Below are positions 9,134 to 49,225 of a stretch of DNA of 64,000 bases, piece by piece. How positions within the stretch are numbered: the first letter of the stretch is position 1; each line of letters starts with the position of its first letter. Position numbers and translations under genes: made by a program. The stretch comes from Shinella fusca (GTDB lineage Bacteria > Pseudomonadota > Alphaproteobacteria > Rhizobiales > Rhizobiaceae), in assembly GCF_014203155.1 (NCBI RefSeq), contig NZ_JACHIK010000012.1, positions 1 to 64,000 on the forward strand. Direction: 5' to 3'. The notes under the pieces were generated by a model, which had not been told where the DNA came from, ran no database searches, and worked only from the letters and a program-made list of their open reading frames with translations.

Positions 9134-9417
9134 TGGTGAGAAGCGAGACCGCCATCGGCACCGAACAGGCGAGCCGCTACCTGCAACAGCTCTGCAAGCA
9201 CTTCGCACACAAGATTCCCGCCACCTTCGACGAGCATGCAGGTCATGTTTCCTTCAAGGTCGGCGAATGCCGGCTCAAGGCGGAGGACGCCACGCTCCAT
9301 ATTCTGCTGGAAGCACCGGGCGCGGAAGACATGGAACAGTTGAAGGACGTCGTCATCCGCCATCTCGTCCGCTTCGCCTTCCGCGAGGAACTGACCGCTA
9401 ACTGGCAGGATGCCTGA
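9133..9417 (+). CDS. DUF2218 domain protein
   Basis: This 94-residue protein matches the pattern of DUF2218: YLQQLCKHFAHKIPATFDEHAGHVSFKVGECRL, then LHILLEAPGAEDMEQLKDVVIRHLVRFAFRE. The domain occurs alone or fused to siderophore-interacting FAD reductases; its biochemical role is unknown. The ATG overlaps the padR stop by one base, so the two are one transcript under the 18-bp operator. A role in iron or nickel handling is suggested only by this link. Confidence 0.82.
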   Translation: MVRSETAIGTEQASRYLQQLCKHFAHKIPATFDEHAGHVSFKVGECRLKAEDATLHILLEAPGAEDMEQLKDVVIRHLVRFAFREELTANWQDA

Positions 9418-46847: not shown

Positions 46848-47312
46848 TCAGCCGACGCGCTTTTCCAGCTCTTCGTCGTCGATCATGGCGGAAGCGCCGG
46901 GAACGGCAACGAACTGCTCCAGCGTCATCGTATCGAGGATGGAGGCGATGGCGTCGCGCACCTCGGTCATCGCCCGGCGCACCTGGCAGCCTTCCGGGTC
47001 GGCACAGTCCTCGCAGGCCTCGTAGGCCGTGCGGCTGGCACAGCGGATCGGCGCCAGCGGGCCGTCGAGCACGCGGATGGCATGGCCGATGCGGATTTCC
47101 GCGGCCGGATGGGACAGCGAATAGCCGCCGCCCGGCCCCTTCTTCGAGCGCAGCATGCCGGCATTGCGCAATTCGAGCAGGATCGTATCGAGGAATTTCT
47201 TCGGGATATTGTTGCGCAGCGCGATCTCGCTGACGAAAGCCGTTTCGCCGGGCGCCAGCCGCGCCAGGTCGACCAGGGCCTTCAAACCGTATTTTCCCTT
47301 TTTCGTCAGCAT
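46848..47312 (-). CDS. Rrf2-family regulator with four cysteines
   Basis: The 154-residue protein has the Rrf2 winged helix (KGKYGLKALVDLARL...ALRNNIPKKFLDTILLELRNAGMLRSKKGPGGGYSL). Its Cys are at 91, 100, 103 and 109, a spacing able to bind an Fe-S cluster though not identical to IscR (C92/C98/C104). Many such proteins sense iron, sulfur or cysteine status. It is convergent with the SfnB-like gene, six bases apart, and divergent from the ECF sigma gene with a 290-bp AT-rich gap. Confidence 0.88.
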   Translation of the reverse strand: MLTKKGKYGLKALVDLARLAPGETAFVSEIALRNNIPKKFLDTILLELRNAGMLRSKKGPGGGYSLSHPAAEIRIGHAIRVLDGPLAPIRCASRTAYEACEDCADPEGCQVRRAMTEVRDAIASILDTMTLEQFVAVPGASAMIDDEELEKRVG

Positions 47313-47554
47313 TTCAGCCTGCTTTCCACCTGCATGAGCGTCATCCGGACCTCATGCAGTCACCCATGCCGGGCGATTCCGGCTCATTCTAGGCATTGAA
47401 GTACGAAAAACATATAAAAACGGTATAATTTATTTGTGCAGTGCATCGCAAGGACATTGCCCTTCCCGGTCAACCCCTTGCGGCGTTTTCCTGCCATCCG
47501 TGCCCCGGCCGCATCATTTTGCCGTCTTTTCGCGCGGCATCGGCTATTCTTGCG

Positions 47555-47582
47555 GGAACCTTCCGGCAGGTCCGGCATCCAA
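47555..47582 (+). promoter_or_regulatory. Putative autoregulated ECF sigma promoter
   Basis: GGGAACCT (from 47554) and GGCATCCAA (from 47574) sit 12 bp apart, giving GGAAC-N16-CATCC. The same blocks at the same spacing occur before the DUF4142 gene (48297). The expected transcript start is only about 18 bp before the sigma ATG. The rest of 47313-47554 is AT-rich near 47400-47440 (TATAAT at 47424) and holds no gene. Confidence 0.72.
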
Positions 47583-47604
47583 CAGGTCCCGAAAGGAGCA
47601 TCCG

Positions 47605-48294
47605 ATGCCGATTCTGCAAGACATTGCCGACAGCCTTCCCGACGACGGGGAAGCATCGCTCATCCGCCGCGCGGCCGCGGGCGACGCGGACGCCGTCCGC
47701 CATATCGTCAAGGCCCACAACCAGCGGCTCTACCGGCTCGTCCGGGCGGTGCTGCGCAGCAATGCCGATGCCGAGGAAGTGCTTCAGGAGGCCTATCTCC
47801 ATGCCTTCTCCCGGCTTGCCGGCTTCAAGGGCGAGGCCTCGCTTTCGACCTGGCTCTCGCGCATCGCTCTCAACGCGGCGCTGATGCGGCTGCGTGCGCA
47901 GAAGCGCCAGAAGCGCGCGGCGGCGGAAACCCGGCCCTTCGAGGCCGACATCATCCCCTTCCCGCTCTCCTCCTCCACAGCCGATCCGGAGCGTGTCATG
48001 GCGCAGCGGCAGCTTCTCCGCCTCATAGAGGAGGCGACCGACGCGCTTCCCGAAGCCTTTCGCCTCGTTTTCGTCGCCCGCGTCATCGAGGGCCTGAGCG
48101 TGGAGGAGACGGCCGCGCTCCTCGGCCTGCCGCCGGCGACCGTGAAGACGCGGCTCCATCGCGCCCGCAAGCTCATCCGCACGCGGCTGGAAGAACAGGT
48201 CGGCCCCGTCCTCACCGACGCCTTCCCCTTCGCCGGCACGCGCTGCGACCGGCTGACGGATGCCGTTCTCGCCAAGCTCGGCCTCGACACATGA
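47605..48294 (+). CDS. ECF RNA polymerase sigma factor
   Basis: The 229-residue protein has sigma2 (residues about 30-100: HNQRLYRLVRAVLRSNADAEEVLQEAYLHAFSRLAGFKGEASLSTWLSRIALNAALMRLR) and sigma4 (about 140-195: LPEAFRLVFVARVIEGLSVEETAALLGLPPATVKTRLHRARKLIRTRL). A conserved-looking tail FPFAGTRCDRLTDAVLAKLG follows. ATG 47605 has AAAGGAG upstream. No anti-sigma gene is adjacent. The promoters at 47555 and 48297 suggest it controls itself and the DUF4142-cupredoxin pair. Confidence 0.93.
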   Translation: MPILQDIADSLPDDGEASLIRRAAAGDADAVRHIVKAHNQRLYRLVRAVLRSNADAEEVLQEAYLHAFSRLAGFKGEASLSTWLSRIALNAALMRLRAQKRQKRAAAETRPFEADIIPFPLSSSTADPERVMAQRQLLRLIEEATDALPEAFRLVFVARVIEGLSVEETAALLGLPPATVKTRLHRARKLIRTRLEEQVGPVLTDAFPFAGTRCDRLTDAVLAKLGLDT

Positions 48295-48296
48295 CG

Positions 48297-48324
48297 GGAA
48301 CCTCCCGGGCACGCCGGCATCCAA
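48297..48324 (+). promoter_or_regulatory. ECF sigma promoter of the DUF4142-cupredoxin pair
   Basis: GGGAACCT (from 48296) and GGCATCCAA (from 48316) repeat the blocks and 12-bp spacing found before the sigma gene. The start would be about 50 bp before the DUF4142 ATG. Confidence 0.72.
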
Positions 48325-48377
48325 TGGGGCGTTAACCGAAACGGGCGCCACCCATCCGCGGCGCCGAGGAGATCCCG

Positions 48378-48899
48378 ATGAAAACCCTGATCTGCGCGCT
48401 CAGCGCCGCCTGCCTTGCCCTTGCCGCCACACTGGCCGTCGCCGCCGACAAGCCGACCGATCCCCAGATCGCCCACATCGCCTACAGCGCCGGCGTCATC
48501 GACGTGGAAGCGGCCAAGCTTGCCCTGTCGAAGACGAAGAACCCGGACGTCACCGCCTTCGCCCAGTCGATGCAGAAGGACCATGAGGCCGTCAACGACA
48601 TGGCGCTGGCGCTCGTCAAGAAGCTCGGCGTGACGCCCGAGGACAACCCGACCAGCCGGGCGCTCGCCAAGGCCAGCGAGGAAAAGCGCGCCGAACTCGG
48701 CAAGCTCGACGGCGCAGCCTTCGACAAGGCCTATATCGACAACGAGGTCGCCTATCACAGAGAAGTCAACGGCGCGCTCGAGACGTTGCTGATCCCCTCG
48801 GCGCAGAACCCCGAGCTGAAGAGCCTGCTGGAAACCGGCCTGAAACTGTTCCAGGGCCATGAGCAGCACGCCGAGCACGTTGCGGCAGGCCTGAAATGA
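48378..48899 (+). CDS. Exported DUF4142 protein
   Basis: The 173-residue precursor has a signal peptide (MKTLICALSAACLALAATLAVAA-D) and a helical DUF4142 domain: HIAYSAGVIDVEAAKLALSKTKNPDVTAFAQSMQKDHEAVNDMALALVKKLGV, and YIDNEVAYHREVNGALE. The DUF4142 fold is a ferritin-like four-helix bundle with His-rich helices; function is unknown. GAGGAG precedes the ATG. It overlaps the cupredoxin start by four bases (ATGA). Confidence 0.88.
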   Translation: MKTLICALSAACLALAATLAVAADKPTDPQIAHIAYSAGVIDVEAAKLALSKTKNPDVTAFAQSMQKDHEAVNDMALALVKKLGVTPEDNPTSRALAKASEEKRAELGKLDGAAFDKAYIDNEVAYHREVNGALETLLIPSAQNPELKSLLETGLKLFQGHEQHAEHVAAGLK

Positions 48900-49225
48900 C
48901 CGCCCTTCTCAACCGGCGCCAGTTGCTGGCGGCGGGCGCGGCCGTGCTTGCCGGCGGCACGCTCGCCCGCGCCCACAACGGCACGGTCCATGTGACGATC
49001 GACAAGCTCGCCTTCCAGCCTGCGGAAATCGAGGTGAAGGCCGGCGAGACGATCGAATGGACCAACAGGGATCCCTTCGCCCACACCGCCACCGTCAAGG
49101 GCGGCTGGGAGGTGTCCATCCCGCCCGGCAAGTCGGCAACCCATGTCGTGACCGCCGACGACAGTGTGGACTATTACTGCCGCTTCCATCCCAACATGAC
49201 GGGCAGGATCAAGGTCATCGCCTGA
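48896..49225 (+). CDS. Exported cupredoxin (amicyanin/plastocyanin-like)
   Basis: The 109-residue protein starts with a twin-arginine-like leader (NRRQLLAAGAAVLAGGTLARA) and then a plastocyanin-like domain. Type 1 copper ligands are His63 (FAHTATV), Cys95, His98 and Met101 (YYCRFHPNMTG). Co-translation with DUF4142 under an ECF promoter suggests a periplasmic redox or copper-stress role. It is distinct in sequence from the pseudoazurin at 20981. Confidence 0.88.
   Translation: MTALLNRRQLLAAGAAVLAGGTLARAHNGTVHVTIDKLAFQPAEIEVKAGETIEWTNRDPFAHTATVKGGWEVSIPPGKSATHVVTADDSVDYYCRFHPNMTGRIKVIA

Follow-up and report, generated by a model that had tools for sequence, protein, structure and literature searches.

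Genes at the locus

The locus lies in the window, by which we mean the whole stretch of 64,000 bases of Shinella fusca DNA that was analyzed, and consists of an ECF sigma factor gene followed by a DUF4142-cupredoxin gene pair, each unit with a promoter site in front.

47554..47582, + strand: promoter site 1 before the sigma gene, GGGAACCTTCCGGCAGGTCCGGCATCCAA (-35 block GGGAACCT, N12, -10 block GGCATCCAA)
47605..48294, + strand: ECF sigma factor of RpoE8/ECF29 type, 229 aa (Pfam Sigma70_r2 and r4_2)
48223..48270, + strand: conserved C-terminal tail of the sigma factor, residues 207-222, FPFAGTRCDRLTDAVL (alignment of 68 sigmas)
48244-48246, + strand: codon of Cys214, invariant among 68 tailed sigmas
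48296..48324, + strand: promoter site 2 before the DUF4142-cupredoxin operon, GGGAACCTCCCGGGCACGCCGGCATCCAA (-35 block GGGAACCT, N12, -10 block GGCATCCAA)
48378..48899, + strand: DUF4142 protein with a signal peptide (by eye), a predicted four-helix bundle (Pfam and structure model)
48896..49225, + strand: exported cupredoxin with a full type-1 copper site (His63, Cys95, His98, Met101)

The sigma factor scores 295.9 bits against NF008888 (cut-off 204) and is about 58% identical to RpoE8 of Sinorhizobium meliloti across the aligned part. The product of the second gene belongs to the DUF4142 family (135.8 bits against Pfam PF13628, cut-off 27), and this gene overlaps the cupredoxin gene by four bases, ATGA. 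The cupredoxin reaches 37.0 bits against the amicyanin model TIGR02657, below the equivalog cut-off of 110.2, and every one of the 34 cupredoxins aligned has all four type-1 copper ligands (His, Cys, His, Met). Its signal peptide (48896-48985) carries a twin-arginine-like NRRQLL, as judged by eye, and cleavage could leave a His as the first mature residue; NRRQLL is found in many close relatives and is absent from the distant aligned ones.

A Pfam scan of the operon and six neighbouring genes, which make up part of the open reading frames between 43164 and 53483, found no anti-sigma gene, in agreement with the initial annotation, which had noted none adjacent. The six neighbours belong to the LacI, FAD/NAD-binding, acyl-CoA dehydrogenase, Rrf2, methylmalonyl-CoA mutase and PfkB families. 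The Rrf2-family regulator (46848-47312), upstream of the sigma gene on the other strand, passes the superfamily cut-off and stays below the cut-offs of its six matching named subfamilies. The DUF4142 protein itself was rejected as an anti-sigma factor, its signal peptide (by eye) being at odds with a cytoplasmic sigma factor.

The assignment to ECF29 (RpoE8 type) is based on a promoter with a GGGAAC -35 and a GCATCCAA -10 element ahead of the sigma gene, on the adjoining genes for a DUF4142 protein (a relative of SMb20593) and a blue copper protein, on the result of the anti-sigma scan, and on a C-terminal extension beyond region 4. Membership in ECF26 (RpoE4) was considered on account of the blue-copper link and rejected on promoter and anti-sigma. 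As described in the portions of the literature consulted, S. meliloti RpoE1/RpoE4 (ECF26) with sorT-azu2 likewise combine an ECF factor with a periplasmic redox operon under its control, a blue copper protein included; they differ in having an anti-sigma in the membrane and a promoter of the form GGAATA / GT. No downstream membrane anti-sigma gene was found among the operon and six neighbours, and the letters of sites 1 and 2 do not fit that promoter.

One promoter form in two copies

Site 1 is separated from the ATG of the sigma gene (47605) by 22 bases, and site 2 begins 1 base past the sigma stop codon, 53 bases ahead of the DUF4142 ATG (48378). Both read GGAAC-N16-CATCC and they are 742 bases apart, and the description in the initial annotation (both blocks twice, with an identical 12-bp gap, within 750 bp) is exact. 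In form and position, site 1 matches the S. meliloti rpoE8 promoter and site 2 matches the SMb20593 site. Promoters of the general stress sigma factor EcfG (ECF15) have a similar GGAAC -35 element and a -10 element of the CGTT type; CATCCAA stands in that place at both sites, which bears out the earlier distinction from EcfG.

The looser pattern GGAAC-N15-17-CATCC matches three times in the window versus a mean of 0.49 in shuffled sequence, three being reached by 2 of 100 shuffles, and the third match, at 9333, lacks the flanking bases. The full 17-base form GGGAACCT-N12-GGCATCCAA occurs exactly twice in the whole genome of 4,851,211 bases, where its reversed control has 0 matches. A search of the genome for more copies, as the initial annotation had proposed, returned only the two known sites even when one mismatch was allowed in GGGAAC-N-T-N14-CATCCAA, and a larger regulon in this genome was rejected on that ground.

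Conservation of the sites and co-occurrence with the sigma factor

Loci were fetched for the best 80 of 220 relatives (L003-L082) and divided into 44 tailed loci (L003-L048 minus L045 and L047) and 36 control ECF loci (L045, L047 and L049-L082). The window, the 44 tailed loci and 15 loci fetched for their sigma gene form a set of 60, several of which are close relatives of each other, so that the following counts are not independent events. A relaxed site is found at most 330 bases upstream of 43 of the 60 sigma genes and of 31 of the 38 DUF4142 genes; it precedes 7 of 12 genes for a short secreted protein called X (see below), 3 of 6 for GTP cyclohydrolase I, 1 of 4 for a Rieske-flavin protein and 2 of 7 for a Ferritin_2 protein, and none of 50 genes for a cupredoxin of either type, which is second in the operon. 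The reversed pattern was found before no gene tested in the 60 loci, and the relaxed site before none in the 36 control loci. Since the latter come mostly from other phyla, they control only weakly for the gene order and base composition of Alphaproteobacteria; better controls are the comparison within the genus, the reversed pattern and the test of spacing.

The initial annotation had named loss of the blocks from orthologous loci as the result that would speak against it, and they are kept in most loci but not in all. At least one tested gene is preceded by a site in 51 loci, and none is in the remaining 9; 17 sigma genes and 7 DUF4142 genes have no relaxed site directly upstream, and the siteless sigma gene in several loci (L189, L190, L191, L046, L048) sits behind module genes that begin with a site. 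The sites upstream of the sigma and DUF4142 genes recur with differing spacers, the shuffle control for this recurrence being built from the window's two regions only. The spacing is sharply defined in the 60 loci, where GGAAC-Nk-CATC gives 101 distinct sites at k = 16 and 0 to 12 at k = 12-15 and 17-21; the corresponding numbers in the control loci are 6 for k = 16 and 0 to 5 for the other spacings. Conservation extends to bases outside the selection: GGAAC is preceded by C and G and followed by CTT, and CATC is followed by (C/T)AAT.

Within the genus (21 genomes, the window's included), the sigma factor is found at E 1e-40 in 10 genomes, and the same 10 alone have at least two strict sites; only one (G013) of the 11 genomes without the sigma factor has a single strict site. 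The earlier proposal that the sigma gene and the DUF4142-cupredoxin pair share one promoter is thus upheld, strict sites tracking the sigma factor throughout the genus. The paired sites lie 734-745 bases apart in 9 of the 10 genomes; in the tenth (G012), the sigma gene is on one replicon and the DUF4142-cupredoxin pair on another, both having a site of their own, which indicates that a gene keeps this promoter even at another location.

Among 101 relatives (the window's own genome included), GGGAAC-N14-16-GCATCCAA has 31 matches versus 7 for the reversed pattern, and 3 genomes that lack the sigma factor (G013, G030, G047) have one strict site each. Outside the genus, strict sites occur in 4 of 7 sigma-bearing relatives. 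One of these sites, in G053, lies 25 kb from the sigma gene with no module gene behind it, and is therefore probably due to chance; the sigma and DUF4142 genes of that genome are each preceded by a non-strict site (L173, L194). In all, sites that are not followed by a module gene occur in some sigma-bearing genomes (L173, L193). A class-wide search with a sigma model retrieved 27 of 385 genomes at E 1e-30, 11 of which have a tailed sigma factor (a match through the tail, at least 245 bits) and 16 of which have matches stopping before residue 204 (at most 173 bits); strict sites are present in 5 of the 11 tailed-sigma genomes, the window's own among them, versus 1 of the 374 others. Lastly, 31 of 36 genomes with tailed-sigma loci have a strict site and 1 has the reversed pattern, a count that drew on 36 of the 46 loci L003-L048.

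Further genes at the same promoter in relatives

Near 61 tailed sigmas, a number that is too low because the tail pattern missed six and that includes loci fetched for their sites, the neighbour search found DUF4142 in 40 cases and one or the other type of cupredoxin in 53; X was near 13 of them, GTP cyclohydrolase I near 6, and a Rieske-flavin protein and Ferritin_2 near 4 each, while 3 had none of these module genes. The query proteins were taken from the same loci as were then counted. The 36 control ECF loci contain one Rieske-flavin protein, and no DUF4142 protein, cupredoxin, X, GTP cyclohydrolase I or Ferritin_2 protein.

A second layout, seen in Microvirga and others, consists of a site, X, a larger plastocyanin-like cupredoxin and then the sigma gene, which has its own site in some loci. 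X is a short secreted protein of about 140 aa with a signal peptide (by eye), and contains KLPDFLPGLGQLYVDP or a close form. Neither Pfam (searched with one copy, partly masked) nor NCBIfam (two copies) has a match to it. X adjoins the plastocyanin-like cupredoxin and a tailed sigma in the 13 X-bearing loci, and stands without the cupredoxin in L159. Three examples, each beside the plastocyanin-like cupredoxin and a tailed sigma, are:

L162, 2264-2677: X gene
L164, 2632-3051: X gene
L168, 2120-2539: X gene

A strict or near-strict site precedes a GTP cyclohydrolase I gene in five genomes (L158, L167, L048, L046, L191), the frame in L167 matching only part of the enzyme, and a Rieske-flavin gene in three (L158, L167, L191). 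In G012, the GTP cyclohydrolase I gene directly follows the cupredoxin gene (L165). Rieske plus pyridine-nucleotide-disulphide oxidoreductase proteins and Ferritin_2 proteins are likewise found under or beside the same promoter in relatives. The occurrence of this promoter before GTP cyclohydrolase I, before the Rieske-flavin oxidoreductase, and before X followed by another cupredoxin is new here. As additional targets of the sigma factor, these genes are predictions for distant relatives; the genome of the window has no site before such genes, and the single GTP cyclohydrolase I gene found there is on a different contig.

Two loci have close divergent promoter pairs between GTP cyclohydrolase I and Rieske-flavin genes (L158:3588-3672 in G127 and L167:2863-2942 in G051), with no sigma gene within the fetched stretch. 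Separately, a Ferritin_2/DUF4439-type protein takes the place of DUF4142 beside a tailed sigma in L043, L046 and L184-L188, which come from a Phenylobacterium, a Sphingomonas MAG and five other genomes.

The C-terminal tail of the sigma factor

In an alignment of 68 distinct tailed sigmas (out of 69; untailed ones are left out by definition, and loci fetched for their sites are included), Cys214 and Gly211 are present in all 68, and the tail cysteine is the sole cysteine of the aligned protein in 47. Tail residues 207-222 have a mean majority frequency of 0.73, as compared with 0.70 in region 2, 0.72 in region 4 and 0.43 in the linker. This conservation, as high as that of the DNA-binding regions of the sigma factor, is new here. 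The structure model (mean pLDDT 81, pTM 0.58) has a long helix at 177-206 and a tail helix at 212-224. The initial annotation had suggested that the tail (FPFAGTRCDRL) may be the sensing part, and its conservation supports it as a candidate sensor. Given that no anti-sigma gene was found nearby, the activity of the sigma factor is most likely set by this tail, and we judge it slightly better than an even bet that the tail acts as the switch. Since a sole cysteine is unable to form an internal disulphide, it would more likely engage in a mixed disulphide or an intermolecular bond, or bind a metal together with other ligands.

The idea of a tail as sensor is already in print in outline. In a 2022 review (PMC8999054, available text), Table 2 places ECF29 under "Others" as the first of 15 groups, without an anti-sigma, in line with the scan of the operon and six neighbours here. 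The text gives 15 as the number of groups with extensions that await study, and an extension in ECF29 is read from this table and text; the ECF29 row gives no mechanism or regulon. CorE and CorE2 (ECF238) of Myxococcus xanthus, according to the parts of the sources consulted, work in a comparable way, with no anti-sigma and with C-terminal cysteines that sense metal; they differ in having a cysteine-rich domain and a CXC linker motif, whereas the tail has one cysteine here.

Fold of the DUF4142 protein

DUF305/CopM ranked first in both fold comparisons of the DUF4142 model, with CopM structures among the top matches, at Foldseek E values above 0.001 and with symerythrin, Dps and bacterioferritin scoring almost equal to CopM. 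Against the DUF305 family (Pfam PF03713), the protein scores 26.2 bits, below the cut-off of 27, and a sequence search of solved structures returned nothing useful. CopM of Synechocystis is described in the available text of PMC4335983 as an exported copper-binding protein; the DUF4142 protein, judging by its signal peptide (by eye), is exported too, and CopM structures are among the leading matches of its model, but CopM has 23 Met residues and is under two-component control, and the DUF4142 protein stays under the DUF305 cut-off.

Relation to the Sinorhizobium meliloti locus

The closest counterpart is the rpoE8-SMb20593-amcY locus of S. meliloti, in which RpoE8 was assigned to ECF29 and for which the rpoE8 and SMb20593 promoters are printed in Table 1 (Lang et al. 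2018, PMC6180224, as far as its available text goes). On pSymB of S. meliloti 1021, we found the sigma, DUF4142 and cupredoxin genes in the order of the window, with sites GGGAACATTTCCGGAGATAGGGCATCCAA and GGGAACGTTTCGAGCCGCGAAGCATCCAA, which are the promoters printed in that paper. The two loci thus agree in the order of their genes and in having a promoter of this form at each of the two positions; according to that text, RpoE8 too has no known anti-sigma. The loci differ in the sequence of the sigma factor, in the base after GGGAAC (C in the window, A or G in S. meliloti), and in the upstream gene, a divergent acyP in Sinorhizobium and the Rrf2 gene in the window. Since the locus and both promoters were published in 2018, the window locus is not new in kind, and it is less new than the initial annotation had implied. 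The cluster is reported in the same text as common in plant-nodulating bacteria and uncommon elsewhere; we also found it, or a variant, in records of Shinella, Bosea, Paracoccus, Methylobacterium and Sphingomonas.

The available sections of PMC6180224 further report two start sites upstream of rpoE8, one of which fits the motif while the other lacks it, no detected start site for SMb20593, and no detectable target induced when rpoE8 was overexpressed 126-fold. The gene pair is therefore a putative target of the sigma factor, and the earlier claim that the sigma factor drives itself and the pair stands in part: the layout fits it, and the overexpression result goes against it. That result fits a sigma factor needing activation, and equally one that does not read the second site. 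In two deletion strains, amcY expression was 2.6- and 3.2-fold higher, contrary to what a simple activator would give. The literature searched names neither a signal nor a regulator nor a target for any ECF29 sigma factor, the sole experimental study having found none. Among the matches listed in a search for SMb20592, SMb20593, SMb20594 and amcY, only PMC6180224 has an SMb name, the others matching through words that start with "amcy", and a search of the same literature for cupredoxin, GTP cyclohydrolase, Rieske and sigma factor together gave no match.

A proposed sigma cassette for periplasmic copper or redox stress

From the shared and conserved promoter, its co-occurrence with the sigma factor, the gene content of the loci, the tail cysteine and the copper ligands, all observed by computation, we propose, with a probability of roughly 0.6, that the locus is an autoregulated, tail-controlled ECF29 (RpoE8-type) sigma cassette for periplasmic copper or redox stress. 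The shared promoter and the regulon form a part of this proposal that we hold with high confidence, and it is likely, judging from the sequences, that this sigma factor reads both sites. It would direct RNA polymerase to start at GGGAACCT-N12-GGCATCCAA, thereby amplifying its own gene in a positive feedback and turning on the next operon, from which an exported ferritin-like DUF4142 protein and a blue copper protein would be made. A signal would act on the C-terminal tail, where the cysteine could serve as a thiol or copper(I) switch, and the products of the operon would sequester or oxidize a metal, most likely copper, and carry electrons in the periplasm. The nature of the signal is a guess, copper or redox stress, weighted to copper or thiol redox stress, and copper as the specific signal is a tentative choice, against which it counts that no copper efflux gene was noticed in the module.

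The strongest competitor keeps the same promoter logic and replaces copper by a redox signal, such as thiol-oxidizing, reactive chlorine or reactive nitrogen species; the cupredoxin and the Rieske-flavin protein would be electron carriers, and the ferritin-like proteins would handle iron or peroxide. The invariant tail cysteine, mostly the only one in the protein, is consistent with such a signal, as are the Rieske plus pyridine-nucleotide-disulphide oxidoreductase and Ferritin_2 proteins at the same promoter and the proximity of the DUF4142 fold to symerythrin, Dps and bacterioferritin. However, the most constant cargo binds copper, a cupredoxin of either type being near 53 of 61 tailed sigmas, and DUF305/CopM came first in both fold comparisons, and we regard a redox signal as possible but rather unlikely. 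GTP cyclohydrolase I and the Rieske-flavin oxidoreductase under the same promoter in distant relatives fit a redox or metal stress response.

It is improbable, in our view, that another regulator governs the sigma factor chiefly at the level of its transcription, with the tail having a structural role only. The second rpoE8 start site of S. meliloti, which lacks the motif (PMC6180224, available text), and the predicted tail helix would suit such an arrangement, but a merely structural helix has no need of an invariant cysteine, and overexpression without a target suggests that the activity of the protein is gated. That another factor reads the sites, for instance EcfG, to whose promoters their -35 element is similar, is very unlikely in view of the CATCCAA -10 element in place of CGTT and of the two or more sites in 10 of 10 genus genomes with the sigma factor as opposed to 0 of 11 without it. 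Chance, or a recent duplication of promoter DNA without function, has two copies 742 bases apart and nothing else in its favor, and is dismissed on the differing spacers, on the recurrence of both sites with other spacers in other genera and families, and on their conservation in orthologous loci.

More broadly, and tentatively, the autoregulated cassette may be one instance of ECF29 factors as one-protein sensors, in which a tail with an invariant Cys would read copper(I) or thiol oxidation and control a modular envelope-redox regulon (DUF4142 or Ferritin_2, one of two cupredoxin types, secreted X, GTP cyclohydrolase I and the Rieske-flavin oxidoreductase) through one promoter across replicons and orders. 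The promoter can be traced over dozens of loci, which gives ECF29 a testable regulon, and the question of how RpoE8 is regulated comes down to assaying a single cysteine. The domain of unknown function DUF4142 gains a regulatory connection to periplasmic copper or redox chemistry and, tentatively, a structural one.

Two published observations touch on the same genes: the available text of a paper on methylolanthanin has a DUF4142 protein adjoining a different sigma/anti-sigma pair, and that of a paper on tolC reports lower rpoE8 expression in a tolC mutant. We also observed that four Microvirga genomes have two tailed sigmas each (L036/L159 in G127, L035/L160 in G126, L038/L161 in G129 and L037/L171 in G128), and that the paired sigmas have different cargo, L161 having a 600-aa protein with a GH1-like domain and its own site.
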